This document shows, one piece after another, positions 3,268 to 29,415 of a DNA stretch of 64,000 bases. Below the pieces are notes generated by a model, which saw nothing but the letters and a program-made list of their open reading frames with translations, was not told the DNA's origin and searched no databases. Made by a program: the position numbers and the translations under genes. The stretch's first letter is position 1, and the number at the start of each line of letters is the position of its first letter. Source of the stretch: Eutreptiella sp. 'Long Island Sound 2002' (Eukaryota; Euglenozoa; Euglenophyceae; Eutreptiales; Eutreptiaceae); the NCBI GenBank assembly GCA_964036045.1, contig OZ038379.1, positions 111,484,611 to 111,548,610 of the forward strand, written 5' to 3'.

Positions 3268-3425
3268 GTTGGCGCACGTTGGCACACAGTTGGCACGCAG
3301 TTGGCACACAGTTGGCACGCAGTTGGCGCGCGAGAACTCAGGACTCGGCGCGCGCCAACTCGTCAGTTGGCGCGCGCCCAGTCCTGAGTTGGCGCGCGCC
3401 AAGTCGTGAGTTGGCGCGCGCCAAA
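3268..3425. repeat. Palindrome cluster, TTGGCGCGCGCCAA family
   Basis: Several copies of TTGGCGCGCGCCAA and half-sites (TTGGCGCGCG, TTGGCACGCAG) are separated by 5-20 bp. They lie between the end of gene D (TGA at 3432) and the hypothetical exon at 2715-3204. Confidence 0.9.
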
Positions 3426-3431
3426 TGCTGC

Positions 3432-4654
3432 TCATTTCCGCGACCGCTTGCTGCCCTGACTCCCCTAGCCCTCTTCCGCCCGCCTGCGCTTGGGGTCAAG
3501 CAGGTGCGCAACCGGGTGCTTGTCCAGCAGGCCCTTCAGCTCCGTGAGGGTGGCCTCTTTGACCCCCATGTTGATGGCCACATGGCGTTGGGCGCTGAGT
3601 GCAGAGTGCAACTCAACCGCCGCGGCCTGCAGGTACAGCACATGCTGCACATGGTCGGGGTCGGGGCCACCCTCTGCCCCCCCCACAACTGCACGCACCT
3701 GCGCCGTGGCGGTCAACTGCTGCTGCAACTCCACCCTCTGCTTTTCCCACCCCTTCTCCCGCCGCTCCCACAGGGCGAGCTCGCCGGCGAGCGCCTCTTG
3801 CGCCGTCTTGCGGGCGGCCTCCGCCGCCTTCAGCTGCTCGCGCAGCAGCTTGTTCTCAGCCTCTAGCCAGAGAATCTCCGCCTTCTCCCATGCCCCCCCC
3901 TCGTCTCCCGCTGCGTGCGCTGCCTGTGCTGCCTCGTGGGGGGTGGTCGTGGGGCGAGGGCGCCTGGAGCCCCTGGCCTGCTGTTCCGTGCGGCCCTTGC
4001 TCTGCAGGGAGGGGTCCCCAAACGCGTCGGATCCGGCCCTGCCCCCCTTCTCCGCCTTCGGCCCTCTCCCCGGGAGCTGCTTCTGGAAGCGGAGGAGAAA
4101 CGCCTGCGCTGCCTCCTTCAAGTGGGGGGCAGGGGCAATGGCCCGCACGTCGCTCCACTCGCACTGCTTCCACCTCTGCAGCCTAGCAGAGCGTCAATGC
4201 TGCAGAGGAGGAGCCGGTTGTGCGTGGAGGGGGGGCGCACCTGCACAAATGGCACAACTAAGACAACCCATGGTTGCACCCGCGCCTTCCCCTGCACCAC
4301 TGCCCAGAACGGGCACTCCACCACCCTATTCGGTCCGGACCCCCGCCGAATCACCTGCGCCTGGAACAGGCGGCTGATCCTCGTCCCCCCCCCATCGATG
4401 ACGTCCACCGCCGTCGCCTCGGCGGACGTCACCTTCAGAAACTCATCGGGGCTGTGCAAGTCGTCCCCGAAGTCTGCCGGTTCCAGGACCTCCGGAACTT
4501 CCCAATCCACCTCCACGTCCACATCCACGTCCAACCCCTCCTCGTGCGCCTGCTACTGCTCCTGCGGCTGCCCCTCCAGCTGCTCCGCTGCAGGCGGCAC
4601 GGGCACTGGACGCGATTCCACTTCCAATTGAAAATTGGCGTAGTGGATTGGGAC
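3432..4654 (-). pseudogene. Copy D, exon 2: beta-rich domain plus coiled coil (2OG-oxygenase element family)
   Basis: Exon 2 starts after the acceptor TTTGCAG at 4655 with a phase-0 GTC codon (VPIHYANF), and the frame can be followed to TGA at 3432-3434. An acidic stretch of alternating Asp/Val precedes a domain resembling the same part of copy E: D reads CEWSDVRA where E reads PEWADVAW. A long Glu/Ala/Leu coiled coil (about 3.95-3.68 kb) and a short GSQGS linker follow. Copies B and E carry similar linkers. Defects are TAG at 4553-4555, a frameshift near 4180 and TAG at 3465-3467. The second oxygenase domain seen in A and B is missing here. Role unknown. Confidence 0.6.
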
Positions 4655-5060
4655 CTGCAAATACGCAAGATCACATTGAACAAGCATTGAACAATGCACA
4701 CAACGACACCAATGCGACAACCAAGACGACACAAAAAGCAACCACACAACAACGTTTCCGATAAAACCCAACCAATTAAATTGAAGCGCCAAAACTGGAC
4801 TTGGCGCGCGCCAACTAGTTACTTGGCGCGCCAAAACTGGACTTGGCGCGAGCCAAAACTAGACTTGGCGCGCGCCAACTGGACACTTGGCGCGCCAACT
4901 TGTCACTCGGCGCGCGCCAACCGATGAGTTGGCGCACGCCAAGATGGAAATCGGCGCGCGCCAACTGCGAAGTTGGGGCGCCAATCTGGTATTTGGCGCG
5001 CGCCAAATGCGTGTGACGTGTGACAAAATCGCGTGCATGCAAAGCACCGCGCGGGCACAC
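4655..5060 (-). other. Copy D intron (406 nt, phase 0)
   Basis: The donor is AAG then GTGTGCCCGC; the acceptor is TATTTGCAG then GTCCCA. Both exon frames meet in phase 0. The position matches the introns of copies A, B and C. Most of it is filled by the GGCGCGCC palindromes listed separately. Confidence 0.7.
4798..5007. repeat. Palindrome cluster, TTGGCGCGCGCCAA family, inside D intron
   Basis: About ten full or half copies of TTGGCGCGCGCCAA lie at intervals of about 15-25 bp, wholly inside the predicted intron of copy D. The spacer bases between copies are unrelated to each other. Confidence 0.9.
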
Positions 5061-5367
5061 CTTCTCGCTGCAGGAGCAGATGGTGCGGCATGCCTCGTCC
5101 ACGCGGACGAGGCCCAACATCTCGGCGTCTTGGGAGCTCAGGGGCGGCGTGAAGTGGGCCATTGCCATCCAGGCCATGCGGGCGGCACCTGGCTCCCGCA
5201 CGAACGCGGCGCCCAAAGCGGCGAACGAGTACACCGCCGTGCCGGCCGTGCAGCGCACGCGGGACCGGTCGGTCCCCTCGGGGGGGGGGGGAAGCCACCA
5301 CCGGTGGATGTGCGGAGTGAGGCAGGCATCCCCTCTGGCCGCCTTGGCGGTGGGCCCCGCTTGCGTG
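5061..5367 (-). pseudogene. Copy D, end of exon 1 (2OG-element family)
   Basis: The minus-strand frame ends in SCSEK directly at the donor AAG|GTGTGC. The matching part of copy C ends PCECK|GTGTGC, and several blocks between the two align (RCTAGTAVY with QCMLFFVG; MAHFTPP with MTGIAPP). Only about 100 codons remain. Upstream (in gene sense) the homology stops at the TTCGTGAACGGCC junction at about 5367-5369, so the catalytic part of exon 1 is absent. A run of ten G at 5280-5289 probably breaks the frame further. This is a 5'-truncated copy. Confidence 0.5.
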
Positions 5368-5368
5368 T

Positions 5369-5632
5369 ACCCTTCGTGAACGGCCGTTAAGTGGCCGTTT
5401 GAATAATTGCGTGAATTTCACGCGAATTTACCCAAATTTTGAGGTTTTTGGGGGAAAATGCCATATTCTTGGTTCACTCCGAGGGCTTTGAGGGGCCAAA
5501 ATTCCTCCCCCAGCTTTGTTACGCATCATCCAATGAAAGTCCCGCCCCAAAAGCATCCATCATGTCCGAACCGTGCCCAAAACGAGAGGTGTCGGAACCC
5601 GGCAAGCCTGTAGCCGATGCACAGCCGTAAAT
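5369..5632. repeat. 270-bp module shared with 18,650-18,898
   Basis: From CTTCGTGAACGGCCG onward, this segment is nearly identical to 18,650-18,898, including the tracts TTACCCAAATTTTGAGG and CATCATGTCCGAACCGTGCC. It begins sharply at the 5' edge of copy D, as its twin does at the edge of copy C. It ends in a TTCGTACGAA cluster at both sites. No protein is apparent. Confidence 0.85.
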
Positions 5633-5633
5633 T

Positions 5634-5705
5634 CACGTGAATTCGTACGAAATTCGCACCAATTTCGTACGAATTTCGTACGAATTGCATGTGAATTCAC
5701 GTGAT
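5634..5705. repeat. Palindrome cluster, TTCGTACGAA family
   Basis: Overlapping TTCGTACGAA, TTCGCACCAA and GTGAATTCACGTGA units occur in series. They follow the 270-bp module and lie on the 3' side of the transposase-like gene T1. Confidence 0.85.
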
Positions 5706-5817
5706 TTTACAGAAATGTTACCGGTGTGCACCCCCTGATTTGTCCTCACACCCCTAGTAGGCCCCCCAGCATGCACCCCGATCACAGGCAACAATGGTTT
5801 GGGTTCGTAAGGCGATC

Positions 5818-7579
5818 TCATGTCCGTCTCTTGCGGCACCGGAACCGCCGCTGTAGAGTCTGAAGGTGCTGCATGTCGGTCAGAAGCCGTCTTCTTGTGC
5901 GGCTTGCATACGTTTGTACACTTATGGGCCCTTGCCCGTGTTGAGCCCTTTTGGTCGCATCCCAGCCATGCAACCAAAGGCTGTCGTCAATGGTGTGGTT
6001 GTCCACAACCACTTGCACCCCTAGTCTCCCCCGGAGGAGGCTTAGGCCCCCGCTGTTGCGCAACATGCGCTTCAGCCTCCGGTGACTTCCCTCCATGGCA
6101 AAGCAGAAGAACTTTGACAAGATTGTCCACTTCTTTGCAAAATAATATATGTGGTCGATCCAAAGATGCGTCCACAGAAGTTTGCCCCACTGGAGCTCAT
6201 TGTGGGCAGCGCCCATGGCTATGCTATGGTTCCGGAGCCGCCCCAGGTCGGCCCCGGAGAACCATGCGGAACGCCACGCGAATACACACATGCTTGCAAA
6301 ATTCTCCCACCACGTTTTGCATACCGACTCCCAACTTTCTCCCCCTACTTGATGCTGCCTCACACTAGGCTGCTCTAGGCAAGCATCTATTATCTTCTCC
6401 CAACCCCTATTCCGCATGAAATGGATGGCAGCAGCACACTCCATCCTCACCTTGCCCTTGCTGTTTGCCTTGTCATTATTTAATGAGGCACGGGTGCAAG
6501 TTCGTGCAGCAAGCCGTGCCTCATCTAGAACCGGTTGCAGCATGGTGCGACACTCTGGCCGGTGCCTTCCCTGTCAATTGTACAACTAGGTCCCGTGTCC
6601 CGTTGACTGCACACAACAGGACACGAAGGACCCCATGGAGGCCATAATCAGGCACTCGCCTATCACTCGTAATGGTCCTATATATAGCATTTATGGCAAC
6701 GGCCGGTTCCCAGTTGCCGTCTATCGCACTTGCTGTGCCAAAGGTAGCAAGGCACAGAGCACGGTTACGCATGCAGACCCAACACACAGTGGCACCAGGG
6801 GATTCTGCCTTCCAGTTTTGGCAGCCCACCATGAGCACCTGTGCTTTACCATGTGCACACAGAAAAAAAAGGGAATGCCTGTCGTTCCCTCCCGTATCCT
6901 TAAAACTTACGGTTGCGGCCTTGCGCAACTCATCAGAAAAATCAATTTCTTGGGAGGCCGCGTAGAGGGTCTCCCACTTTTCACTGCCCCCTAGTAGCCA
7001 CCAACTAGATAGTTGGTTGGGGCTGGCGGTGCCACCAAGCGTGCAATGGACGTACGAGGCCTCATGCCTCGATGTACCGTCCACCGCAATAGGTAACCAA
7101 TGCAGCCGTCGGTCCCTGCGCTGCATGAAGTCCGAGGGTGGGGGTGGTCGACACTTGAATAGGTGGCCGATGCGGTCAGGTAGGTAGCAGGCCGCACCAT
7201 TGATGGCCGTGTCGTCTCCCGTATAGGCGGTGAACGCCCGGGACTCCGGCAATGCTAGCTGCCGAAGCATGCCGTACACCTGGTCCCATACCACACCGTA
7301 CGTCATGCTCCCCACTAGGTACCGGGACTCCGTCCTAGAGAGGTGCAATGACCGGATCCTCCAGACGGCCATAATCAACCTCTCCTCCATGGTGGGCTCA
7401 GGCTGGAAGGTGGCTACAACTCTTCTTTCGGGGGTAAGCACTATTTGCCTCGTGTCGGGCAGGTACTTGACGGTGTAGGGTGCTGCAAGCTCCTTGGTAA
7501 CAACTTCCTGGAGCTCTTGTAGGCGCCGCCGTCGTGTACGATCCGCTAGCAGATGGAATGGCTCCTTGGGCCGCGGCAT
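5818..7579 (-). CDS. T1: transposase-like protein (two overlapping frames)
   Basis: A frame of 352 codons (ATG at 7577-7579) overlaps by 23 bp a second frame of 241 codons that ends in TGA at 5818. Together they resemble one protein of about 590 residues with a frameshift near 6521-6560. Features typical of eukaryotic DNA-transposon proteins are a C-x-x-C pair (VCWVCMRN), a downstream LHGVLRVLL block, and a His/Trp-rich segment (WTHLWIDHIYYFAKKW, then EGSHRRLKRML). T2 shows the same order (CWNCN; WVHWVVCHSGAHLQRW). The first half has WLPIAVDGTS, which could hold an early acidic catalytic residue. The C-terminus is basic. TTCGTACGAA clusters flank it on both sides. The superfamily is uncertain; a link to KDZ-type transposons is inference. 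Confidence 0.55.
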
Positions 7580-7677
7580 GGTGTGAGATACAAGACCTGT
7601 TGAATGGGGGAGGCAGTCATCGCAAGGTTTCTACCATCCCCCTCCCGCAGACAACCGTCTCTACTGTGATTCGCATG

Positions 7678-7820
7678 CAAGTTGAAGAAATTCACATAAA
7701 TTCGCACGAATTTCGTACGAATTTCCCGCGAATTTCAACTGAATAGATTTGTGTGAATATTCTGAAAATGTGAAATTCGCACGAAATTCGTACGAATTTC
7801 GTGCGAATTTCACATGACTG
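7678..7820. repeat. Palindrome cluster, TTCGTACGAA family, upstream of T1
   Basis: Repeated TTCGTACGAATTTC, TTCGCACGAA and CGCGAATTTC units begin about 100 bp upstream of the T1 start codon. This is the same placement as the clusters upstream of copies A, B, F and G. Confidence 0.85.
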
Positions 7821-7958
7821 TCACAGAATTTCTGCCGAAGCCTCATCCTTCTGCCCTCGTTGACCCTCACTAAGCAAGCGCAGGATGGTGCTCATGGGTT
7901 ATCACACACCCAGTCTAGTGGCTGTCATTCCGGCTGACACTCAGTCAGCAGTGTAACA

Positions 7959-9315: not shown

Positions 9316-9878
9316 CTGCTGGGTCCAGGCCGTATGGTGAGCATAACCTGGCATACCAAGAATACCCCCCCAAAACAGCCATTTTGGCACATGTACCTAG
9401 TCGTTCCGTGTGCCCATGGGATATAAAAAAATCAGTTTAGCACCCTGAAAATAGGGGGGGGGGTCAAAAAACCAGAAAGCCAATTCCATACACCCACACC
9501 TGTGCGTGGCAATCTACACTTTTTGAGGTATTTGTCAGTATACTCGAAGTATTGGAGAAGTATTCTTGCCGTATACTTCGGAGTATACGGCCGTATACTC
9601 AGAAGTATACGGCCGTATACTTGGAGTATACGGGGACTTTCTACCTTCCACCCATGCCACCATTCTCATCACCTACCCCTCCCCCTTGCATTTACTCATG
9701 ACCCTGCAACCCCCAAACACATTGTACACACAAAAGAGCACCATATGAGCAAAGCAGAAGACCACAAGAAGCAACCTTGTTTGATGTCCCATCCGAAATG
9801 TCAAATGTGATCCACTTCCCCATGTTATATATACCTAATATACACACTTACGCATATTGCACATCACATGATATATAC
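9316..9878. other. Presumed intron or spacer between T2 and copy E
   Basis: No gene is supported. It contains a 38-bp segment also found inverted at 16,763-16,799, and the GTATACGGCCGTATAC cluster listed separately. Confidence 0.4.
9537..9635. repeat. Palindrome cluster, GTATACGGCCGTATAC family (1 of 4)
   Basis: Two perfect 16-bp palindromes GTATACGGCCGTATAC plus several half-sites (GTATACTTCG, GTATACGG). They lie upstream (gene sense) of the copy E acceptor. Confidence 0.9.
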
Positions 9879-11504
9879 CTACATGTGCTTTGGTGCACGA
9901 TGCTTCTTCCGCATGCGTTGCATGCCAAACTTGATCCCCTCTCTACCCGAACCCTTTTCCCCAAACCACAACCGGATGCCCCAATCAAGGGCATCCAGGT
10001 GCAGAGCATGCCTTAGTCCCCATCGGGTGACATAAGGCTTGCTCAGCTTCCACCCTTGAAAACAATGGCGGATGTCCATTTTAAAATTTTTGTTCCTCCA
10101 TTCCGTGGGAATGGAGGAAAACTTAATAAAATTCCCCCACCTTTGGAGGTGTGCCCCACTGTGGCACACCACCCAATGCACCCAAACCGGAACACTCCAC
10201 CCCAATGCCCCCCATGCCTTGGTGAATTGTGTAACCATGGATGCATAACGTTGGCGTTGATCCATGGGAACAGGACCCACATGGCGCCAAATCTTTTGCA
10301 TATAGTAACAGGCCTGCAACATGAGGTGCAGGACGGCACTGGTTTTGAGCCACCTGTTGCCCTCCCACTTCACAACATGGGTACAATACATTGCAACAAT
10401 GCGCACCAACTCGGCGTGCAACTCAGGTGTTTCGAAAAAAAGACGGGAGGCATTAATGTCGAGAGTGTGTTCCTTCTCTTTCGAGGGAGCACGCATCACT
10501 CTCTCAGCCACAGGGATGTGCTTTGCTTCTTGCCGGAGGTTAGAAATGAAATGGGACACGGCCCTTAGGGCTCCTGGTGAACCCCATGTGCGGGCGCTGT
10601 CCTTGAGACGTTTCCCAATGCTTGTCCCCACCCTTGCACAACAATGTGCCACATCTCCAACATTGCGGACAGCAGGGATGCAAGACATAAGGGACCCAAT
10701 GCGAGGAAGCACTGGAAAATCTGCAATTGCAAACAAATGGGCTTGAAATTGGTCATACTTGAGATTGCAATTCCAACATTTCCCACACGAACCCGACATC
10801 ATGACTTTCCCATCCCCACTTTTCAAACACAATAATTTTTTGGGAGTACCCCCAATTTCTATGCCGCCCTCGGCTTCAAGTTTTTTGATTTGGTCATTCA
10901 ATTTCCCCACGGCATCCATCCTTTGCAGATGGGCCATATCGTCCCCCCCATCAAAAACCCACCATGAGGCCCATGCCTGACCATCATGGTGTGCCCCCCT
11001 ATCCTCCCATAGGTCCACAAACACGTCACAACGTGTGGCACTGGCATCATGAAAAACAGTGGCATCAGAACAGAGTACAACAGCCAAATATGTATTCTCC
11101 TCATACTTCCGAATGCTGTCTTCGGCATGGGCACATGCAACCATGGTGGTGACAATATCATGCAATTCCACCACCCCACATGTCCGGGTACCCCCTTTAG
11201 TGGCCACGTCCAAAACCCTCCCCTTGGACAGATAAGGTGTGAGTGTATTACGCATTGTCATGACATGGTCCCAAGTGCATGTGGTCCTCATGCAACCCTT
11301 CAATGCCCGGATGGAAAGGTGGTGCCGCCGCATCCATCGGAGTGGGTTAATTGCCTCCTTGTCGGCCACATCCACCTCACCATCTTTTAAAATAATCATG
11401 AGGCCTTGGGCATGGGGTCGCAAAAGTACATCGTCACCAAGCAATGCTGATGCTACTGATTGCATCCACAAACGTCTTTGCCGTTGCCCTCTTTCCCCGC
11501 AATC
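9879..11504 (-). CDS. T2: transposase-like protein
   Basis: An uninterrupted frame of about 540 codons ends in TAG at 9879-9881, with TGA four codons later. The first ATG is at 11,465. The frame extends upstream to a TTTTTTTTACAATAG tract at about 11,505. Beyond this T8 run another frame (to 11,802) continues with protein-like sequence (AHLSTAIIVSNMFANAH), so a frameshift at the T run or a short intron is likely. Features: LCSDATVFHDAS and CDVFVDLWED (possible acidic catalytic region), SCGKCWNCN (C-x2-C-x2-C), a Lys-rich loop, then WVHWVVCHSGAHLQRW matching the order seen in T1, and a basic tail (KFGMQRMRKKHRAPKH). It is flanked by GTATACGGCCGTATAC clusters on both sides. The transposase assignment rests on layout, not on a verified DDE triad. 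Confidence 0.5.
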   Translation of the reverse strand, partial: DCGERGQRQRRLWMQSVASALLGDDVLLRPHAQGLMIILKDGEVDVADKEAINPLRWMRRHHLSIRALKGCMRTTCTWDHVMTMRNTLTPYLSKGRVLDVATKGGTRTCGVVELHDIVTTMVACAHAEDSIRKYEENTYLAVVLCSDATVFHDASATRCDVFVDLWEDRGAHHDGQAWASWWVFDGGDDMAHLQRMDAVGKLNDQIKKLEAEGGIEIGGTPKKLLCLKSGDGKVMMSGSCGKCWNCNLKYDQFQAHLFAIADFPVLPRIGSLMSCIPAVRNVGDVAHCCARVGTSIGKRLKDSARTWGSPGALRAVSHFISNLRQEAKHIPVAERVMRAPSKEKEHTLDINASRLFFETPELHAELVRIVAMYCTHVVKWEGNRWLKTSAVLHLMLQACYYMQKIWRHVGPVPMDQRQRYASMVTQFTKAWGALGWSVPVWVHWVVCHSGAHLQRWGNFIKFSSIPTEWRNKNFKMDIRHCFQGWKLSKPYVTRWGLRHALHLDALDWGIRLWFGEKGSGREGIKFGMQRMRKKHRAPKHM

Positions 11505-11814
11505 CTATTGTAAAAAAAACAGGGTGGGCCATAACATGTGAAACAAAATAGGGTGCCGGCGTTGACGTTTGTGGATGCAGAGCACATACTGCATAGAGGG
11601 TCAAATGCCGGCGTTTGATTCCCTCAGAAAAATCCTGAATGCTCTCCAAACAAAGCCCCTTCTCCTTCTGATGGGCATTTGCAAACATATTGCTTACAAT
11701 AATTGCTGTGGAGAGATGTGCCAGGCATATGTGGGCCAGTTGCCCAGTGAAACCCTGCGCACAGGCGCATGCAACAGGCGCACAGCATGTACGATTCAGC
11801 ACAAATCTTTCGCC

Positions 11815-11900
11815 ATATACTTCGAGTATACGGCCGTATACTTCCAGGTATACGGCCGTATACTCGGAGGTATACGGCCGTATACTGGTAGTATACGGTG
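11815..11900. repeat. Palindrome cluster, GTATACGGCCGTATAC family (2 of 4)
   Basis: Three perfect 16-bp palindromes plus terminal half-sites. They lie exactly between the end of copy B (TAG-TGA at about 11,904) and the start of T2. Confidence 0.95.
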
Positions 11901-11904
11901 CTCA

Positions 11905-13628
11905 CTAGGAGCCCCAAGGACGAAAGCCATAGGCCAATAACGCATCAACAGACTCATCGGGGAGGTAATCTGTGTTGCACCCATTGTAGAAAACAATGGC
12001 ATAGCGCCCCCCCCTCCATCGGGCAGGCCCGTGGTGGGCTTTGGAGTTGAAAACCACACCCGGCCAGCCCTTGTAGGCCTTCGCATCCACAACACCACCT
12101 CCATGTACATCCAATTGCATCGGGGTCCCTTGCATGGGAGTATGGAGCACTCCACCTGTTTCAACACAGACCTCCCCACCACTATGCGCCCCGACAACGC
12201 AGATGGCGGAAAGCGGAGAAGGATCCCTCATATGGCGATGGCCCGGCATTCTTTGTGAAGTATCGCATTGTACCACTTGAATGGTGGTTCAATGGAACCA
12301 CCTTGCAAAATTCGCATGCCCATGTGCATTTGAAAGGCAAATTAGCTCCCTTTGCCTTTCATTGCCGCTGCACAAGCGCACGGCGCCAATCCTTCCCCTG
12401 CCTGTGTGTCCCTGTAGCCCCAAACTGCACATTGTGCACTTGTACACCCAAGATGTGCACCTTGCGGTACACCAACTCTCGGCATAAAGCTGCAAGGGCG
12501 GGGTTGGATGGGGGTAGTCATTGCGGCTTTGGGGGGAGGCCACTGGCTGGGGAGGCGGACTGACTGCCCTGACTCCCACTGCCCTGACTCCCAGACCCTT
12601 GGGGTGGGGGTGCACTCCGTGTGACACTATGGGCCACAATGGACCTCGCCCACTCCTCGTTGGCCTTGGCCGCTTGGAGTTGCCTCTCCAACTCCTTGGC
12701 CTTGAGGTGCCAGTCATGGGCACTTGCGGTGGCATCGGCCAACTTGGTCTCCAGGTCCGCAATCCTCTTGTCCTTGGCGTCACCCTCAGCATGGGCAACC
12801 TTCAGCTCCTCCTTGAGGGAGGCATTGGCCTCCCTCAAGGAGGTCAGGGAAGTCCGGCTGAACTCCCCGATCTCTCGGGAGATGTTCAGCCGGGACTTCC
12901 CCAAGCCCGCCACAACACCGCTGGGCACATCGAGGTCCCCCAGGGCCTCGCATGTGCCACGGCGGGCAGCTGCTTCAATCCCCCCCACCCCTCCAAACCC
13001 CTCAAGCCCCCACGAGCCAACAGCAACAGCAGGAGCAGCAGACCCGGAAGGCTTGGGGGCCTTCCAGGTGGGGGTGGGTGCAGGGGTGGCCCTTGGTTCA
13101 GCGGGCTCATCATGAGCCCGCTTCAGCCCCCTCCCCCCAAGCTGTTTCCCCGCCCTCGAGGCCAATTCGGCCTGGAGGGCGAGGGAGTACTCCCCGGGGA
13201 CAGGCTCCCCCCCAAAACTTTGGAGCACCATAATGGAGTCCGAAATGCTCCATTTTTCCCCCGTGGTGCTCAAAAAAACCCGCACCTTCCCGGAGCTCTT
13301 GCTCCACACCGCAGCCCCCCAAATGGGCTCCACAACCCCCCCCCCCCTTTGCGACATTCGCCACAACCCTAATGGGCAGGCGAATGTCGTAAAGTGCACC
13401 ACTGGCACGGACATTCAAACGGGAATAGTATCCCGTGTCCTTGCCAGTGGTGCACGCCAGATCGGAGGGCGCACTGGCAACATCCCCCGGACCCACAGGA
13501 ATGGGGTCCACGTACTCCCGACCGGAGATCACTTGTCCTGCGGCAGCCTTTGGCGCCACCAACTCCACCTCGGGCTCGGCCACCTCGTAATCGGTGATGC
13601 TCCGCAGTGGCCAGGGATCATACTGGAC
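11905..13628 (-). pseudogene. Copy B, exon 2: beta domain, coiled coil and second 2OG-like oxygenase domain
   Basis: The acceptor CCCATTCAG is followed in phase 0 by GTCCAGTATG (VQYDPWPLRSI). In order: a domain with GREYVDPIPVGPGDV and VWSKSSGKVRVFL; a Lys/Arg-Pro segment; a strong coiled coil (EANASLKEELKVAHAEG onward, about 12.85-12.65 kb); and the linker GSGSQGSGSQGSQ. It ends with an oxygenase-like domain: HRHMRD, then VGAHSGGEVCVETGG, then FNSKAHHGPARWRGGRYAIV. The last block resembles the distal His/Arg strand of 2OG-Fe(II) oxygenases, including TET/JBP-like ones. A canonical H-x-D is not clear, so activity is doubtful. Frameshifts fall at the C run 13,336-13,346 and in 12.5-12.25 kb. 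It ends TAG-TGA. Confidence 0.6.
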
Positions 13629-14186
13629 CTGAATGGGAAGAAAGGGTGGAATTCTAACAAAGAACTAGGCAAAATGGATCGAAATTGGCAACAAATAGTA
13701 TGAGTATACGGCCGTATACGTCCGAGTATACGGCCGTATACCTCGGAGTATACGGCCGTATACTCAAAATGGGTGGGCAGGTATACGGCCGTATACTCGC
13801 GGTATACGGCCGTATACTAGGGGTATACGGCCGTATACCGCGGGTATACGGCCGTATACACAAGGTATACGGCCGTATTCCAAGACCATGGCACTGGGTG
13901 GGTGAGAGGTATGCATGCTACACTTGCAAACGAAACGTTCCTGGTTCAAACCCCACTGCCCACAAACATGCAAAAACATGTGTAGGCCATTGAAAAATCC
14001 TGGGAAGATGTTGAAGAGGTTGATGATCAATTCAATTCAACTCAACTTGAAGAACTGCAACCATATAGGGAGGCGCTGAAGACAGGCCAAACAAAAAAAC
14101 CCACCAGTGGCCCTACCTTTTGAGATAACTGGGACTTAATGAATAACAACAACACTGTTCAACCCATGCCCGGATCCCACAAATAC
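13629..14186 (-). other. Copy B intron (558 nt, phase 0)
   Basis: The donor is AATCAG then GTATTTGTGG; the acceptor is TTCTTCCCATTCAG then GTCCAG. The position matches the introns of A, C and D. Confidence 0.7.
13702..13879. repeat. Palindrome cluster, GTATACGGCCGTATAC family (3 of 4), inside B intron
   Basis: Seven perfect GTATACGGCCGTATAC copies plus one ending in TTC are spaced by 3-15 unrelated bases. All are inside the predicted intron. Confidence 0.95.
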
Positions 14187-18645: not shown

Positions 18646-18649
18646 TTCG

Positions 18650-18898
18650 TGAACGGCCGTTAAGTGGCCGTGTGAATAATTGCGTGAATTTCACGTGAAT
18701 TTACCCAAATTTTGAGGTTTTTTGGGGAAAATGCCATATTATTGGTTCGTTCCGAGAGATTTGAGGGGCCAAAATTCCTCCCCTAGCTTCGTTACGCATC
18801 ATCCAATGAGGGTCCCGCCCCAAAAGCATCCATCATGTCCGAACCGTGCCCAAAACGAGAGGTGCCGAAACCCGGCAAGCCTGTAGCCGATTCACGGC
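18650..18898. repeat. 270-bp module shared with 5369-5632
   Basis: A nearly identical second copy of the segment beginning CTTCGTGAACGGCCGTTAAG and ending near CCGATTCACGGCCGTGAATT. It abuts the 5' edge of copy C, as the other copy abuts D. Confidence 0.85.
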
Positions 18899-18985
18899 CG
18901 TGAATTCACGTAAATTCGTACGAAATTCGCACGAATTCGCACGAATTTCGTACGAATTTGACGTGAATTCACGTGAATTCATACC
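18899..18985. repeat. Palindrome cluster, TTCGTACGAA family
   Basis: GAATTCACGT, TTCGTACGAAATTCGCACGAATT and ACGTGAATTCACGT units follow the 270-bp module, as at 5634-5705. Confidence 0.85.
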
Positions 18986-19059
18986 AATTTCACCCTTGTG
19001 CACCCCCTCATGTGTCCTAACACCCGGGGTGCCTCCCCCCCAAACACCTCTGCAGGCAC

Positions 19060-20455
19060 CCTGGCTACAGGCAACATGTGCACATGTGTGTGGGTGTGCC
19101 TTTGTGTGGGGTGTGTGGGTTTGTGTGGGTTTGTGTATGGTTGTATGGTTGGGTTTGCATGTGGGCGGATGTGTGACTTCCTGTTTGTTTCTACGTGCGG
19201 GCGTGCGTCTGTGCGTTGGTGTGTGTGAGGATGTGGGGGACACCCGACCACATACGCACACAAACCCGTCCCAAACCTCACACCAACACCCACACACCCA
19301 CACACACAACCACGGACCCATGGATACACACCCACACACAAACACGCACCCACGCGCACAAACCAATCAACACACACACACACACACACAGATAGACACA
19401 CCCACAATGATCCCGCCCCACACACCTAACCACGACAAATCCACTATGCAGGTGTGTGTGCGTATGTGTGGCTGGGCAGTGTGTGGGTGTGGGTGGGGTG
19501 GCAGGGCGGTTTGATTCCACTAATGGCATGTGGGTGTGTGTGTGGGGGGGGGGGGGTACATGTGCGGCTGTCTGTGAGGATGTGAGGAGCACCAAACCAT
19601 GCACATATACGCACAAGCCTTACACACACACACGCACACCCTTCCCGCACCTCACACCAACACGCGCGCACACACAAACACACACAACCACACACCCGAC
19701 TACACATGGACACACCGACCCACATACACGCATCCGCACAAACCATACGCATACACACACACACAGAATCACCCCCCTAAACATTTAACCGTGACACATC
19801 CACTTTCCAGGTACGTATGAGGGTGTGTGGGCGGGCAGTGTGTGGGTATGGGTCGAGTGGGGGGCTGTTTGCTTTCATTGAGGGTATGTGTGTGTTTGTG
19901 CATGGGTGTGTGTGTGTCTCTGTGTGGGGGGGGGGTGTATGACTGTCTTTTTGGTTATGGGTGTGGGCGTGCGCCTGTGTGCGTGGGGCGGGTGAGGATG
20001 TGAGGAGCACCAAACCATGCACATATACGCACAAGCCTTACACACACACACACACACACCCTTCCCGCACCTCACACCAACACGCGCGCACACACAAACA
20101 CACACAACCACACACCCGACTACACATGGACACACCGACCCACATACACGCATCCGCACAAACCATACGCATACACACACACACAGAATCACCCCCCTAA
20201 ACATTTAACCGTGACACATCCACTGTCCAGGTACGTATGAGGGTGTGTGGGCGGGCAGTGTGTGGGTATGGGTCGAGTGGGGGGCTGTCTGCTTTCATTG
20301 AGGGTATGTGCGTGTTTGTGCATGGGTGTGTGTGTGTCTCTGTGTGGGGGGGGGGTGTATGACTGTCTTTTTGGTTATGGGTGTGGGCGTGCGCCTGTGT
20401 GCGTGGGGCGCGTGAGGATGCGAGGAGCACCAAACCAGATATACACACAAGCCAT

Positions 20456-20486
<31 letters not shown>

Positions 20487-20629
20487 TACACACCCTTCCT
20501 GCACCTCACACCAACACGCGCATACACACAAACACACACAACCGGACACCCAACTACACATGGACACAACGACCCACCCACCCACACACACACACACATC
20601 CGCAGAAACCCATCCACACACACAGGCAG

Positions 20630-20661
<32 letters not shown>

Positions 20662-20820
20662 CCCCCCCCCCTAAACATCTAACCGTGGCACATCCACTGT
20701 CCAGGTACGTATGAGGGTGTGTGAGCGGGCAGTGTGTGGGTGTGGGTCGAGTGCATGGGGGGCTGTTTGCTTTCATTGAGGGTATGTGTGTGTTTGTGCA
20801 TGGGTGTGTGTGTGTGTCTC

Positions 20821-20852
<32 letters not shown>

Positions 20853-20870
20853 CCGGGGGGGGGGGGGCAG
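19060..20870. repeat. GT/CA-rich satellite of about 420-bp units
   Basis: A unit with a GT-rich half (GTGTGTTTGTGCATGGGTGTG), then GAGGATGTGAGGAGCACCAAACC, then a CA-rich half recurs with GTGAGGATG starting at about 19,574, 19,992 and 20,412, an offset of 418-420 bp. A more diverged unit precedes them. Reading frames here are Cys/Val- or His/Thr-rich translations of the repeat and are not genes. Confidence 0.85.
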
Positions 20871-20954
20871 GTACAGGGAAATGTGTGTGGGTGTGGGGAC
20901 TTCGTTATTGCATACGTGGTGTTGGTGTGGCTCTTCTGCCAGTGTCCTGCAAAA

Positions 20955-21110
20955 ATGGTACGAAATTCGCACGAATTTCGTACGAAATTCGTACGAAATT
21001 GGTACGAATGTCGTACGAATTTGGCACGAAATTTGTCCCCAAAGTGTACCGTGAATGTGGTTGTTACGAATTTCGTACGAAATTCGCACGAATTTCGTAC
21101 GACTTTCGAC
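20955..21110. repeat. Palindrome cluster, TTCGTACGAA family
   Basis: TTCGTACGAAATTCGTACGAAATTGG-type words, plus a segment (GTACCGTGAATGTGGTTGTTACGAA) repeated at 21,968-21,991. Confidence 0.85.
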
Positions 21111-21139
21111 CAATTTGCATGAATTTGTATCATTTTTAT

Positions 21140-21745
21140 GCAGAACAAACACACTCAGCCCATAGCACACAGCACAGCAACACAACAACAACACAGAAGA
21201 ACAACACAGTCACCCCATATCACACAGCACAGCAACACAACAACAACACAGAAGAACAACACAGTCAGGTCATCAGCAACAGTCACCAATGAGGAGCAGC
21301 AGACAGACGAAGCACAACAAGCAGCAAGCAAAACAACGGTACCAACACAGCCGAAAAGCAGGCATTACACACACATCATGACAATCAGCAGCAACAAACA
21401 CAAACGACAGACAGTCACAAACTGCAAACAGCACAAAAGTATTGTCCCACATGATTCAACAACCGGCAGCCACCCATCCAACCATCCACACCCACTCATA
21501 GCACACAGCACATCAACACAACAACAACACAGAGGAACAACACAGTCAGGTCATCAGCAACAGTCACCAGTGAGGAGCAGCAGACAGACGAAGCACAACG
21601 AGCAACAAGCAAAACAGCGATACCAACGCAGTCGAAAAGCAGGCATTAAACACACATAATGACATTCAGCAGCAACAAACACAAACGACAGACAGTCACA
21701 AACTACAAACAACACAAAAGTATTGTCCCACATGATTCAACAAAA
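21140..21745. repeat. CAA/CAG-rich tandem duplication, offset 281 bp
   Basis: A segment with ACAGTCAGGTCATCAGC at 21,261 recurs at 21,542 and continues in parallel to the ATTGTCCCACATGATTCAACAA box (21,441 and 21,722). Internal shorter repeats (CACAGCACAGCAACACAACAA) are present. No gene is supported. Confidence 0.8.
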
Positions 21746-21894
21746 CCACCCAGGAACCCAAGAACCACCAATGCATGCACATATCACCCAGGCACGCACA
21801 CACCATGCACACAGGCCCACACAAACAACAACCCCTCCGACCAGGCACACCCACACACACACAAAAATGACACAAATTCATGCAAATTGTTTGA

Positions 21895-22130
21895 ACTTCG
21901 TACGAATTTCGTATGAAATTTGTACGAAATTCGTGCGAATTTCGTACGAATTTCGTCCCTCAATACGTACCGTGAATGTGGTTGTTACGAATTTCATACG
22001 AATTTTGTACGAAATTCGTATGAAATTCGTAACAACCACATTCACGGTACGTATTGAGGGACGAATTTCGTACGAAATTCGTACGAAATTCGCACGAATT
22101 TCGTGCGAACTTCGTACGAACCTCGCACCA
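21895..22130. repeat. Palindrome with arms of about 115 bp built from TTCGTACGAA words
   Basis: The sequence is close to perfectly symmetric about 22,008/22,009. For example, GTTGTTACGAATTTCATACG (21,981-22,000) faces its complement at 22,017-22,036, and 21,941-21,960 faces 22,057-22,076. Confidence 0.85.
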
Positions 22131-22249
22131 TTTTTGCAGTACACTGGCAGAAGAGCCACACCAACACCACCTATGCATGTAACGGAGTCCCCACACCCAC
22201 ACACATTTCCCTGTACCTGCCCCCCCGGCATCCACACACACATACAGTG

Positions 22250-22284
22250 CAGCAATGTACACACACACACACACCGCACAGAGA

Positions 22285-22351
<67 letters not shown>

Positions 22352-22405
22352 CGTGAGGTGACCAAAGAACCAAGGACACACATTTCCCGATACCTGCCCC
22401 CCCGG

Positions 22406-22484
<79 letters not shown>

Positions 22485-22500
22485 CCATACAAACCCCTAC
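22250..22500. repeat. (CA)n microsatellites
   Basis: Two long nearly pure CA runs (about 22,290-22,350 and 22,410-22,480) are separated by a segment containing TTTCCCGATACCTGCCCC, a diverged repeat of 22,207-22,222. On the minus strand they follow a good donor (AAACAG|GTATGTTTG at about 22,533), so they may be intronic. Confidence 0.8.
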
Positions 22501-22561
22501 ACAAACACACAAACCCAAACACAAACACAAACATACCTGTTTGCTTTCATATCAGCACAGG

Positions 22562-22789
22562 CTACACCCCATCTGTACGCAATCTTGAAATAGCAATGCC
22601 GTCCCTGTTCAACATTGGAAAGTGCACAAGAAGAGGCCTCTCAATACCCCACAATCTGTGCTCCCAATCACCCCTTCTACAGAATGCTCGTGCTGGATCC
22701 TGCAGAGCCAGGCCGTGCCGCGACACGATGCGGCTGACTGTGGTGAGAAGCCAGGCAACACCATTGGGAAGCGACTCAATACACAAAAC
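22562..22789 (-). CDS. Hypothetical exon
   Basis: After a strong acceptor (CCTTTTTCTCTTCACAG, ending at about 22,790) the minus-strand frame reads VLCIESLPNGVAWLLTTVSR, then CRRGDWEHRLWGIERPLL, then SRLRTDGV before TAG at 22,562-22,564. A donor (AAACAG|GTATGT) lies 27 bp further on. The composition is ordinary protein, unlike the surrounding repeats. I recognise no family. It could be an internal exon of a gene whose other exons are lost in the satellite DNA. Confidence 0.4.
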   Translation of the reverse strand, partial: VLCIESLPNGVAWLLTTVSRIVSRHGLALQDPARAFCRRGDWEHRLWGIERPLLVHFPMLNRDGIAISRLRTDGV

Positions 22790-22864
22790 CTGTGAAGAGA
22801 AAAAGGATACCCTCCCTAACCTTAACCGCATTGCAACAAGCAAGACACCCTCATAACCCCACAC

Positions 22865-23234
22865 CCAGACACTCAGGGGCTGTAAGTGGGGGGTCTCCTT
22901 GCCCCCCCCCCCCTCCCAACCCTAGACGTGGTTGATTACGCTCCTATGGTTTGACCCAATGAACCCCCCCACCCCACCCTCATGCATCTACTAGCAACTA
23001 TCACCTTTGCCCTTCCCAACAACTGTGTGAGCAAGGCAACAATGGTTCGACCCCAATGGACCCCCCACCACTGCATCCACTATCACCTATAACCTATGCC
23101 CTTCCCAACAAATTTGTGAGCAACGCAACAAAGATTAAGAAATGTAATGTGTAATGTTTTGATTTGATCTACAAAACAAATTGATCAATATCCAATGTGT
23201 GCAACAAATAGCAGTGACAAGACAAAATTGGGGC
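22865..23234. other. Gene-free stretch with two diverged copies of an approximately 95-bp repeat
   Basis: Segments containing CCCTTCCCAACAA-ctgtgtgagcaaggcaac (about 22,950-23,040) and CCCTTCCCAACAAATTTGTGAGC (about 23,098-23,125) resemble each other. No coding sequence is seen. Confidence 0.4.
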
Positions 23235-23545
23235 CGATTCGTACGAATTCGCACGAAATTCGTACGAAATTCGTACGAAATTCGTGCGAATTTCACATTC
23301 TCGTGAATCTGTGAATCTAGCGTGAATTTATGCGTGAATTTGGGTGCGTGAACTTCACATTCACGCCAATCTCACCAAATGTGTTGAACCATGCGGCTAC
23401 TTCAAAACTGTAAATTGCACACATTTGTTGGATCTTACTTTGGGCGAAGATAGCACGACAAAAGCACACGATAGCACCAAGTTACGAGCAAAACACAGCA
23501 AAATTGGGTGAAATTCACGGTACCGTGAATCTCGGATTCAAACGG
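23235..23545. repeat. Spacer module repeated directly at about 24,270-24,555
   Basis: TTCGTACGAA words, then GTGAATCTGTGAATCTA, then CACCAAATGTGTTGAACCATGCGG, then GAGCAAAACACAGCAAAATTGG and CACGGTACCGTGAAT occur in the same order at both sites. Confidence 0.8.
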
Positions 23546-24201
23546 CCGGTTCACGAAGGGTACAACGGTACCATTGCAAACAAGTTGTGCTATAGAAGGT
23601 GGGGTGGGTGACGTCGCGGACGTGCACCTGGGGGGGGATTGTGGGATGGAAAGGGGCGATGCCCAAATCATCCCACCACCGGGGGTTGGCAAGGTGCGAA
23701 GAAAAGGGGAAAAAAGAATGGTCTGCCGGTGCACCTGCAGCAAGATCCTGCAAGCACACCATATCGCAGTGGGGGGGGTATGTGGACGAGGTTAGTGGTG
23801 GGGTACTCCTGGACGTGGGCGTGCTTAGGCTTCCCCACAGGGTTAGTCCTCATGGAGTTGAGGAGCTGGTCAACACTGGAGGGGAGAGGGGTTAGATGCA
23901 GAAATTTAAGGGAGGGGAGTTGGCGGCGCAGTTCCCTCCACAAGGTTGTGGCCCATCCCCTCCCCCCGAGGTAACTATTGCGGGTGGGGCTGCGCATGTC
24001 GATGTGGATGACCTCGGGGGAGGGGTCGAGGGAGGCTGCCCAGCCCACGACGTCATCCACCCCCAGTGCCCCCGACCCGTACGTCGCCTCCTCCAATTGA
24101 TGGTGGGCGACGGGGAGGGCTTTGTAGTGGGCGAGGGTGTCGGCTGTGGGGTCGGGGCGCGAGGCCAGGCTGGCGAGCTGGGACATAGTCTGCTGGAACA
24201 T
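23545..24201 (-). pseudogene. Copy F', N-terminal fragment (left arm of inverted duplication)
   Basis: The frame starts at ATG 24,199-24,201 (MFQQTMSQLASLASRPDP). It aligns over its whole length with copy F on the other arm. Blocks include GVDDVVGWAASLDPSPEVIH, IDMRSPTRNSYLGGRGW, LWRELRRQLPSLKFLHLTPL and SVDQLLNSMRTNPVGKP, resembling an alpha/beta leucine-rich or F-box-associated region. After a G8 run at 23,768-23,775 the frame shifts to CLQDLAAGAPADHSFFPF and VTHPTFYSTTCLQWYR, and the copy then stops at the TTCGTGAACCGGCC junction. It has CAA (Gln) where F has TAA. Confidence 0.6.
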
Positions 24202-26459: not shown

Positions 26460-26771
26460 ATGGCTCATCCACTGCGGGACACCCGTACCAACCGTGATAG
26501 TATCCTTCCAGAGATCGACTTGGGGTGGAACAAGGTGATGAAGGCGTGGGGCAGCGGCGACGAAAAAGTCGTCGCAAAGAATTTTGAGCTCCTTTTCAAC
26601 GCCGCGCGGAGTGAGGAGCAGGCCAAGGATCCTGCGCTCCCCCGCCGTTGGCAAAGCAAGAGCACCTTTGGGATGCAGCGTTCTAGGGCGTGGTGCGGAA
26701 CCCCCCCAATTTTGGGTGTTGTTAATATGGTTGGAACCCGGAATTTCACATGTTACATGGGTGCACTATGA
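26460..26771 (+). pseudogene. Copy F, second coding block
   Basis: The frame reads IDLGWNKVMKAWGSGDEKVV, then AKNFELLFNAARSEEQAKDP and LPRRWQSKS, matching copy C. After WQSKS it diverges (TFGMQRSRAW) and stops at 26,771. In C the oxygenase H-x-D core follows at this point, so F is truncated just before its catalytic centre. Confidence 0.55.
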
Positions 26772-26889
26772 TGCAACAATGTGCCTTCCATGTTTCGTTT
26801 GCTCGATATTGCCCGTTTTGCACTTTTTGCGATTTGATCTTTGTGTGCTCTAAATAGTTAGAACGGGGTTAGAACGGGGTTAGAGCACT

Positions 26890-26997
26890 AGTTATCGCGT
26901 GGGTTATCGCGCGATAACCTAGTTATCGCGGGGGTTATCGCGGGGGTTATCGCGCGATAACTAGTTATCGCGCGAGTTATCGCGTAGGTTATCGCGC
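26890..26997. repeat. Palindrome cluster, TTATCGCGCGATAA family, upstream of copy A
   Basis: At least two full GGTTATCGCGCGATAACC / GTTATCGCGCGATAAC palindromes and about six half-sites (GGGTTATCGCG) lie 55-165 bp upstream of the A start codon. Confidence 0.95.
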
Positions 26998-27017
26998 TTC
27001 ATTTTATGTTTCCCCTT

Positions 27018-27042
27018 TTCGCTTTAGCTCTCAAAGCTTTCA
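27018..27042 (+). promoter_or_regulatory. Shared 5' leader motif upstream of A
   Basis: TTTCGCTTTAGCTCTCAAAGC lies just before the A start codon. A close version (TTTCGCTTTGTTACAGCTCTCAAAGC) lies just before F, and mirrored before F'. Conservation outside the coding sequence suggests a transcription or translation leader. Confidence 0.45.
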
Positions 27043-27053
27043 TATTCTTCGTA

Positions 27054-29174
27054 ATGGCCCTTGCTGCTGCCCACACTTGGTGCGAGCACCATCAAAAGCT
27101 CCTTGGGGTCCATCGCCTTGGCGGTCCTGAGCGGTTTACCATGGGTGATGCCAATGTGAGGCGCCTTGTGGCGACCCGCTTTGAACATGGTGTGGACTTT
27201 GGACTCCTTGTCCATAAGTCCCCCTTCATGGCGGACAAGCGAGACCCCCTGGTTCTCAGCAACTACATCTTCGAGTTGCTAGAGGTAAATCCAAGGGTTG
27301 CTGGATTTTTGATCCAGCTTCATACCGAGGATGTGGACGCGGTGGTGGAGTCCGTCACCGCTAATGCCGAGAAGGGTGCGGGGACGAAGACGACCCTCTA
27401 TGTGGGTCAGGAGGAGGAGGAGGAGGAGGAAGTGGAGGAGGAGGAGGAGGATGCGGGGGGGGTGGGGGCTGGGGGGAGGAAGGAGAAGCCCCACAACCCC
27501 CTCATGATTAGTGTCCAGAAGGTAAGGGTGAGACCTGGTAAGGGGAAGGGGAAGTCGGATGGTTGGTTCCCCCAACCCCTCACCCACAACACCCGCCGGG
27601 TCTGCACTGACGACCCCGAAAAGAAGCTCCCCGTGCACTCCCTTTGCCCCACAAGGGAGTGGGAGCGTGAGTGGTATGGGGTCACCACTCCCAACATTAT
27701 TTCGGGGCAGGGGGTGATTCTTTTTCCATTTGGGGCAACACCCCCCCTTATTGGGGAGGCGGAGGAGGTGGTTGCCGCCGAGCCCTTGGGGGCCTTTAAT
27801 AGGGACCCGAATGACCTTGTGCTCACGGTGGGGGGAAAGCTGGTGGTCAACCACCTCCTGGAACACGATTTTTTGAGTGACATTCAGCTGCAAAGTCTTT
27901 TGGATGATTTGGATAGGGTGCCTCTCTCAGAGAAGGCACCCATTTTCAATGAGAACCCCCCCATTGTCGGCAGGCCTCAAGATTCTGGGACCCGCCGCAC
28001 ATTGTATGGCAACTATGGGGGTGCCGACCAGCACAAGCACAACCCCCACAAGCTCCATGACCTGCCAGTCCTCAAAAGGGTGGCAGATCGTGTGCTTGAG
28101 ACCGCGAAGAAGACTGTGGTGGGGGGGGTCGGATGGAGTTGCACCATCCTTGACATGGCCGAAATTTCGAGCTATGACCACACCCCCCAGCACCTCCATC
28201 GCGACGCCCCCCCCTACACCATTCCTGAAGGCACATTGATTGCCAATTGCCTTATTATGCTAACCCATAATCATGAGGAGGAGGATGGGTCACATTTTCT
28301 TTTTGTGCCCTCCAGCAGTTCAGGGTTCCCTGACCCTTGGGTGGAGAGGGCTGTGCCATTCAAGAGGGGCACTGCCTTTTTTTTTAATGCCCTTGATGTC
28401 CACAGGGGGTCGGGGATTCCCAAGGCCTCCCCCATGGGGGTAAGGGACCCCCCCCTCATGGTATTTTTTGCCATTGAGCTTACCCAGGGGGGGAATCTTC
28501 GATTCCCCCACCTGCACGTGACGCAGTCCATTAAAAGGCCCCAGCTGGGGGCACCTGGTGGCCGGGTGGCCAGGACAGTCCAGTGTGATGGGGCGGTCAG
28601 GTGTAGGGGGAAGGTGGTAGCCAATTGCTACGGATGCAATCGGCTGATTTTGTGCACCGCCCACAAAGATGGCCTTTGTGTGCCATGCCAGGAGGGGGAG
28701 GAGGTGGAGGGGGGGGAGGAGGAGGTGGTGGTGGACCCCAATGGGGTCAGCATTGAGCAATCTGCTCAGTGCTTGCTCCCGGTGGGAACAACCACAGGGC
28801 ATTTTTTGTTGTCGGGCTGGGGGATTGGGAGGGAGGTGATTGCCCCCCTCACTAATGAGGAGGCGGGGGCGGTCGCAGGCCACCTCGATCAGTGCCCCTT
28901 GGCCAAGGTGTGCCATGGGGAGGCACTGCCCTGGCCCACCTTGCAAGGGCATGTTGGGATTAAGGTGCCGGCGGGCACCATTTTGGTGGTGAGGAGGGGG
29001 TTGTATGGGAGAGTGGCAAGGGTGGCCCGTGAGGTGGAGGGGGTGGCCCAGGTGGTGGAGTGGCGGCAGGTGGGGGAGTATGCGGCCGCCACGGACTTCG
29101 TGTGGCTGCGGAGGCTGGGCCTGGTGCTGGACGACCCCAAGAAGGAGGGCCAAGGCATGTGTCCATGTCACCAG
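27054..29174 (+). CDS. Copy A, exon 1: 2OG-Fe(II) oxygenase-like protein with zinc module
   Basis: An uninterrupted exon of 707 codons. ATG 27,054 is chosen because it follows the leader shared with F; an upstream in-frame ATG at 27,006 lies in the leader. In order: N-terminal domain (NPRVAGFLIQLHTEDVDAVV); an acidic Glu run (about 123-140); LVVNHLLEHDFLSDIQ, the oxygenase N-strand; an iron-binding HRD (His382, Asp384); SHFLFVPSSSSGFPDPW; and LDVHRGSG (His450). After this comes a zinc pattern C-x2-C-x5-C-x2-H-x4-C-x2-C (CYGCNRLILCTAHKDGLCVPC), then VPAGTILVVRRGLYG. It ends at donor CAG|GTGTGA; reading through gives a stop two codons later. Family role: 2OG- and Fe(II)-dependent hydroxylation or demethylation. 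The substrate here is unknown; the transposon setting suggests DNA or chromatin (inference). Confidence 0.75.
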
Positions 29175-29415
29175 GTGTGAAAACTTCCCACAACACCCTG
29201 CTCTAACCCTTGCTCTAACTAGTTATTGCGCTAGGTTATCGCGTTCTAACTAGGTGCTCTAACTAGTTATCGCGCTAGGTTATCTCGTTCTAACTAGTTA
29301 TCGCGGGGTTATCGCGGGGGGTTATCGCGGGGGTTATCGCGCGATAACCTAGTTATCGCGGGGGTTATCGCGCGGGTTATCGCGTGTTTTTTTTTGTTTC
29401 TTTTGTTTTTTTCAG
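29175..29415 (+). other. Copy A intron (241 nt, phase 0)
   Basis: The donor is CACCAG|GTGTGAAAAC. The acceptor has a long T-rich tract ending TTTTTTCAG|GCTACC. The frames of both exons meet in phase 0. Confidence 0.8.
29220..29385. repeat. Palindrome cluster, TTATCGCGCGATAA family, inside A intron
   Basis: One complete GGTTATCGCGCGATAACC plus about ten half-sites (TAGTTATCGCG, GGGGTTATCGCG), all within the predicted intron. Confidence 0.95.

Follow-up and report, generated by a model that had tools for sequence, protein, structure and literature searches.

The first 33 kb of a 64-kb stretch from the 2.28-Gb genome of Eutreptiella sp. 'Long Island Sound 2002' (contig OZ038379.1, positions 111,484,611 to 111,548,610; hereafter the window) consist of DNA transposons nested in one another. 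Among them are members of four families, A, B, C, and D, each with a related oxygenase-like gene that contains one intron at a common site, and each family carries arrays of a short word of its own in this intron and in other non-coding parts of the element. The arrays are, with a probability of roughly 85%, family-specific recognition sites for some element-encoded protein. Anti-silencing is the likeliest purpose of such recognition, a proposal in which both the binding protein and the outcome are inferred and for which the chances are about even.

The exact words occur in the window 3 times for A (TTATCGCGCGATAA), 16 times for B (GTATACGGCCGTATAC), 23 times for C (TTCGTACGAA), and 7 times for D (TTGGCGCGCGCCAA), compared with summed counts of 0, 0, 1, and 0 over 30 dinucleotide-shuffled versions of it. 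None of the family words was found in nine 10-kb loci at arbitrary positions, and an origin as chance palindromes was rejected on the strength of these loci. Genome-wide counts, which cover two of the four words, gave 4078 occurrences of the B word and 4684 of the D word, with one occurrence of the reversed control in each case. The words are mostly palindromic, 10–16 bp long, and CpG-bearing, and the B units are spaced about 21–22 bp apart.

The introns of A (29175-29415, 241 bp, + strand), B (13629-14186, 558 bp, − strand), C (17134-17434, 301 bp, − strand), and D (4655-5060, 406 bp, − strand) are all of the GT-AG type, in phase 0, and at the same site after a cysteine-rich motif, which reads CPCHQ, CICNQ, CECK, and CSCSEK in A, B, C, and D, respectively; splicing was deduced from reading frames and splice sites. 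Their arrays lie at 29211-29384 (A), 13702..13878 (B, with 7 exact words), 17220-17399 (C), and 4786-5006 (D). Outside the intron, the family word recurs upstream of the gene in A, B, and D and beside the transposase gene in B, C, and D. The B arrays are found near both element ends and also between genes, that is, near the left terminal inverted repeat (TIR) at 9568..9633, between two genes at 11812..11898, and upstream of the start codon of the oxygenase gene, close to the right TIR, at 16489..16592. An array of A words and half-sites stands upstream of A exon 1 (26857..26997), and in another A copy (L028) the half-sites TTATCGCG are placed in the intron (1438-1599), in the gap between the second gene, e2b, and the transposase gene (3734-3883), and past the transposase gene (5678-5740). 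The left part of the C element has C word arrays at 5629-5697 and 7684-7817, and D word arrays are located upstream of the D oxygenase start codon (32492..32636; start codon at about 32402, − strand) and past D exon 2, ahead of a D transposase remnant (3268..3424; remnant at 2814-3164).

An earlier note on this DNA, made from the letters alone, had described a common phase-0 intron in A to D filled with a different word array in each, and the GT-AG sites and reading frames at the four coordinates bear this out, as they do its statement that exon 2 starts with GTCC or GCTA (GTCC in B, C, and D; GCTA in A). Its placing of the word upstream of the start codon in A and B also stands and extends to D, with the correction that arrays are present between genes and near the ends as well, while its description of the words as perfect palindromes fails for A, which is mostly a half-site array with 17 copies of TTATCGCG on the + strand and only 3 perfect palindromes.

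The conservation of the words was followed in family B. In a genome search with the B oxygenase, 76 of 3207 candidates were scored; two groups of 11 and 17 B copies, on different contigs, have one bit score within each group, all 28 are stop-free in the matched part, and the groups (compared by score and not by DNA identity) look as after a very recent burst. Selecting loci by the exact word biases the estimate, which was therefore redone on copies selected by coding sequence, for which 20 of the 76 matches were hand-picked to span 85–98% identity, not by word. On the intron side, 17 of these 20 loci contain at least 4 words when up to 3 mismatches are allowed, and no words at this threshold were found in the remaining L032, L040, and L048. 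The rate estimate was made on 15 of the 20 loci plus the window, with L032, L033, L040, L042, and L048 left out (no array or unrelated sequence), and variable sites were counted in place of Fisher tests per copy, which count copies and not events. Among non-CpG sites, 13/96 are variable in the B words, compared with 17/39 in the spacers (p 4e-4) and 113/370 in the rest of the intron (p 7e-4), and neither exon 1 (24/271) nor exon 2 (6/57) differs significantly from the words. Spacers diverge at these sites several-fold faster than words within the same array, and by such site counts the B words are shown to be under selection. CpG sites are variable in 7/32 cases in the words and in 7/10 cases in the remaining intron sequence (p 0.008). 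The CpG observed/expected ratio is 0.40–0.51 in the coding parts of A and B, with an excess of TpG, and ranges from 0.54 to 1.56 in the nine arbitrary loci; depletion of this kind together with the TpG excess is what methylation would leave.

Arrays pass from copy to copy in register, and what changes them is the loss of whole units, seen in five B copies (L034-L037 and L047). The A introns (4 copies) and the D introns (2 copies) likewise have arrays in register, with units missing from L029 and L011. These patterns do not support the palindrome-growing mechanism in introns that the earlier note had entertained. The spacers, which it had called unrelated, are indeed different between families, but they are inherited among the copies of one family.

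Further evidence comes from a separate and more distant family, F, represented by P0030, which is 42% identical to the B query P0002 and 39–46% identical to most B copies; transposase pieces in L055 show 47–56% identity. Flanks were fetched for six different-looking loci among 98 matches, which were mostly B copies; one of the six (L058) turned out to be a B copy as well, and the other five are P0030 and relatives 50–74% identical to it. B-type words were present in 4/4 upstream stretches and in 4/5 downstream stretches of F, with none in L051. In both L055 and L059, inspection by eye places the array downstream of a donor that follows LWCARNR or LWCACNQ and upstream of an acceptor that leads into sequence resembling B exon 2. 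When its words are masked, the B intron gives no convincing hit in the F introns; the best match (E 0.002) falls in the exon-1 part. As the B word is retained in F, it has lasted longer than the intron sequence around it. Families A, C, and D, at a greater distance than F, use other words, and a word that tracks lineage in this manner is the behaviour of a putative recognition site changing together with its protein. Taken as sequence evidence, the genome counts of the B and D words, the conservation of the B word over its spacers, and the keeping of the word at about 40–44% protein identity make the reading of the arrays as an address label well supported; the copy-specific address code of binding sites suggested earlier thus survives as an address code, but one that is specific to the family and not to the copy.

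A similar layout was found in an element of another superfamily. A piggyBac-type element (PF13843, E 1.1e-16) at C1:24018321-24024496 (L009 and L026), inside a B element, contains 66 GGTAAC/GTTACC motifs, compared with an average of 3.7 and a maximum of 9 in shuffles, and these motifs lie close to the ends of the element and, as judged by eye, within introns of a second gene. The labelling of elements by motif arrays is consequently not limited to one transposase type here. In the window, TAGATAAAGGAATAT at 35655-35672, with GTTACC motifs nearby, matches by eye the terminal repeat of this element and is probably the end of a relative of it.

The earlier note had treated A to D as copies of one gene family; they are not neighbouring copies of one gene but lie in different, nested transposon families; one tandem gene family with drifting introns was also considered and rejected, since A, B, and C each have TIRs of their own. 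The B element (9333..16794, 7462 bp, − strand) has TIRs of 37 bases that match at 97% (TATGGTGAGCATAACCTGGCATACC) and is flanked by a 2-bp target duplication, CG, at 9331-9332 and 16795-16796; it splits a C-family gene, as judged from order and orientation and not from an uninterrupted copy. A second full-length copy of B, L005, shares 97.2% identity over 7.5 kb. Copies of B with the same TIR have the target duplications CT (L005) and CA (L006), the latter being a short derivative with about 1.84 kb of B. The A element (26669..31229, + strand) begins with its left TIR TGGGATGCAGCGTTC at 26669, and 31229 is the point where the e2b match stops; its right end was not found within the window. A 2.85-kb A copy in L010 is inserted in a B element with the target duplication TG, confirmed by comparison with the window, where this B sequence is uninterrupted, and a long A copy runs on through L028. 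Both deletion derivatives, the one in L006 (B) and the 2.85-kb A copy, keep their terminal arrays. A second C-family element (18639..23564; TIR TGTACmCTTCGTGAAC) lies inside the C gene with the target duplication AC at 18637-18638 and 23565-23566, and a related gene copy at 25468-25678 aligns in pieces on both of its flanks, the site being read by eye. The left part of a C element (5366..7817, − strand; terminal repeat region 5366-5753, transposase pieces 5818-7579) is within the D element, whose own ends were not found. The families are inserted into one another: D holds C, A occurs in both B and D, and, as judged from order and orientation, B lies in C. Four of the 11 B-word loci fetched (L007, L010, L011, and L014) also contain A, C, or D palindromes, with L010 and L011 being parts of one neighbourhood. 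A perfect 326-bp palindrome at 24386-24711 of the window consists of two inverted copies of a C-element end region.

The gene order in B (L005) and A (L027, with some parts truncated, and L028) is oxygenase exon 1, intron, exon 2, e2b (a small second protein), and transposase. In the window, the B genes are all on the − strand and comprise oxygenase exon 1 (14187..16263, with HRD...HRGG, a cysteine-rich module, and CICNQ at the donor; open reading frame (ORF) 14242-15960), a coiled-coil-like exon 2 (12521..13628), e2b (12028..12345, HxH..GGE..H..GER), and the transposase ORF (9879..11471, D..D..CWNC..HWVVCH..IPTE). Neither B exon is a single open frame in the window. In the intact copy L005, an open frame of 722 codons reaches the donor in exon 1, and one of 375 codons starts at the acceptor in exon 2. 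The A genes, on the + strand, comprise oxygenase exon 1 (27006..29174, HRD...HRGSG), exon 2 (29416..30360, open for 221 codons from the acceptor), and e2b (30690..31229). The C and D copies of the window are broken, with 61 open codons before the C donor and 33 after the D acceptor, and the 3' part of C oxygenase exon 1 (17435..18638, − strand) has HTD and SRHHG in two different frames.

Between A and B, the exon-1 proteins share about 25% identity (E 3.7e-20). Q-x2-HRD and a distant H are conserved when six sequences of families D, B, F, and A are aligned. The HxD...H iron site reads HRD...H in A, B, D, and F and HTD...H in the frameshifted C copy of the window. Searched at E up to 10, PDB gave 15 matches to a profile of this alignment; the best has an E of 4.6e-4 and is the only one below 0.001. 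Fourteen of the 15 carry names of oxygenases, oxidoreductases, or biosynthetic enzymes; one of these is expressly Fe(II)/2-oxoglutarate (2OG)-dependent, and the rest of the 14 are 2OG-Fe enzymes or likely so. The fifteenth, mL155, bears a ribosomal protein name. In the two PDB alignments shown, the match falls on HRD...HRG. The Pfam PhyH model scored above its cut-off for P0016 of the B family (22.6 vs 22 bits) and more weakly for some A-family proteins, and no TET/JBP match was found in Pfam or PDB at the thresholds used. The HxD...H site, the PDB profile matches, and the PhyH match together point, by sequence, to an oxygenase-type protein of the PhyH-like 2OG-Fe(II) kind and not of the TET/JBP kind. 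The e2b family has 149 relatives at E up to 1; e2b proteins had no Pfam match, their single PDB match is meaningless (E 0.79), and nothing meaningful came from PDB with P0009, P0003, or the e2b profile as query (best E 0.79). The residue pattern of e2b (HxH, GGE, H, GER) recalls 2OG oxygenases. Scans with NCBIfam, Rfam, and for tRNA gave no informative result. The A transposase is 29.7% identical to that of the B copy L005 (E 1.7e-58), and a D..D..CWxC..H..HxxxxH..E pattern occurs in the transposases of all four families (A and B by alignment, C and D by eye), with the second D replaced in the C copy of the window (CAHGK); the four appear by this pattern to fit the DD[CxxC-H-H]E type of the EnSpm/Plavaka/Transib kind.

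In the mechanism proposed here, a protein encoded by each family would recognise that family's own word near the element ends, in the upstream regions, in the gaps between genes, and in the intron. This protein, or a complex containing the oxygenase, would bind the arrays and remove or prevent DNA methylation there, by which each family would keep its own promoters and ends active and leave the rest of the genome untouched. With arrays inherited in register, losing whole units, and holding one word per family, the protein and the word could change together. In a more specific version, each family would have a DNA demethylase of its own that is addressed by sequence. A PhyH-like oxygenase, of a kind new to DNA demethylation, would be brought by a family protein to the family's CpG-bearing palindromes in the non-coding gaps, and unrelated transposon superfamilies of one genome, piggyBac included, would have converged on self-labelling by motif arrays. 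This version is speculative and rather doubtful. Several observations weigh against recognition for anti-silencing. The CpGs of the words (7/32 variable) are no steadier than those of the spacers (3/10) or of the two exons (5/22 and 2/10), and protection of the words from methylation is therefore not shown; the measurement of selection refers to B. In none of the encoded proteins could a DNA-binding domain be identified, the oxygenase is PhyH-like by sequence instead of TET/JBP, its other members scanned fell below the Pfam PhyH cut-off or had no match, and two AlphaFold models (one of e2b) were unusable, with mean predicted local distance difference test (pLDDT) scores of 30.7 and 31.7.

The terminal arrays also fit binding by a transposase or TnpA-type protein, and this gives rise to the main rival explanation, in which the words are sites for the transposase or a TnpA-like accessory protein that act in end synapsis and promoter auto-repression, the intron and intergenic arrays add regulation, and methylation is irrelevant. 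It agrees with the position of arrays just inside the TIRs, with their retention in the deletion derivatives L006 and the A copy in L010, and with the subterminal repeats of CACTA elements, which the available part of PMC2613891 describes as putatively read by tnpA-like products, but arrays are equally dense and under selection in the intron, kilobases from the ends, where subterminal sites alone would not need them, and the explanation is unlikely, if a serious one. The words might otherwise be enhancers or splicing signals for a host factor, with a different host protein for each family. Their location, ahead of start codons and within the first intron, and the selection on them would suit such a role, which is nonetheless improbable given that the nine arbitrary 10-kb loci lack the words, that words switch between related elements and are uniform within each, and that the piggyBac-type element has a similar layout with another motif. 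A neutral by-product of palindrome-multiplying mutation, through tandem duplication, gene conversion, or satellite-like drift, would account for the 21–22 bp unit spacing and for arrays that differ by whole units (L034-L037 and L047), but the faster divergence of spacers than of words at non-CpG sites and the persistence of the word in family F, where the rest of the intron cannot be aligned, make it highly improbable. If recognition for anti-silencing is correct, sequence-specific anti-silencing would not be peculiar to the VANDAL transposons of Arabidopsis and would have arisen again with another transposase, another enzyme, and palindromic CpG words, and the families would provide a ready set of protein–word pairs with natural specificity switches, of use in studying the co-change of DNA-binding proteins and their sites and in targeted demethylation.

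VANDALs are Mutator-like transposons. This is also implied in the part of PMC10398659 available, where RNA-directed DNA methylation and VANC have opposite effects on the same non-coding regions. The anti-silencing protein VANC21 binds arrays of YAGTATTAY in the non-coding regions of VANDAL21, VANC6 has a different motif, for VANDAL6, and tandem-repeat evolution is described for the VANDAL arrays of introns and upstream regions (PMC5735166, in the sections available). The earlier note's remark that it knew of no described system of this kind does not hold, VANDAL/VANC having family-specific motif arrays that include introns (PMC5735166). The elements described here resemble VANDAL/VANC, so far as these sections go, in having short family-specific motif arrays in non-coding regions, in introns, and upstream of their own genes, in the difference of motif between related families, and in array units that behave as tandem repeats diverging together. 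They differ from VANDAL21, whose motif as given there has 9 bases and one orientation, in their mostly palindromic words of 10–16 bp with CpG, and from VANDALs in their 2-bp target duplications, other transposase type, and oxygenase-type gene. No VANC or Mutator-like transposase domain was found in Pfam scans of the window ORFs and family proteins, VANC sequence not being compared directly.

Some fungal DNA transposons, including ones of the CMCT clade (EnSpm, Plavaka, Transib, and kin), carry TET/JBP dioxygenase genes that have been read as a counter to methylation (PMC12730594, in the part available). The combination of a DNA transposon with a 2OG-Fe oxygenase-type gene is shared with A to D, whose oxygenase, unlike the fungal ones, is PhyH-like by sequence; motif arrays are not reported, and there are no palindromes at the borders of the TET gene, in the accessible text on the fungal elements (PMC12730594). 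The elements A to D combine family-specific arrays, as in VANDALs, with an oxygenase-type gene, as in the fungal transposons. CMCT target duplications of 2–5 bp are matched by the 2 bp in B (window, L005, and L006), A (L010), and C, whereas the termini of A (TGGGAT..ATCCCA), B (TATGG..CCATA), and C (TGTAC..GTACA) depart from the mostly 5'-CA..TG-3' termini described for the clade; those of PlavakaA are TGT..ACA (PMC12730594). The transposase pattern and the 2-bp target duplications would fit the CMCT group as this source outlines it. CACTA/EnSpm elements have diverged subterminal repeats inside their TIRs, putatively recognised by tnpA-like products, for which co-evolution has been suggested (PMC2613891, in part). 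Arrays just inside the TIRs are a likeness to these elements, and arrays in the intron and intergenic gap a difference from them, the repeats being subterminal only as described in that part of the source. Within the library and search words used, no report of this very system was found in the literature. Elsewhere in the window, a long terminal repeat (LTR) retrotransposon at 45248-56016 has 536-bp direct repeats with 99.8% identity, which enclose matches to a reverse transcriptase, an integrase core, and a chromodomain.

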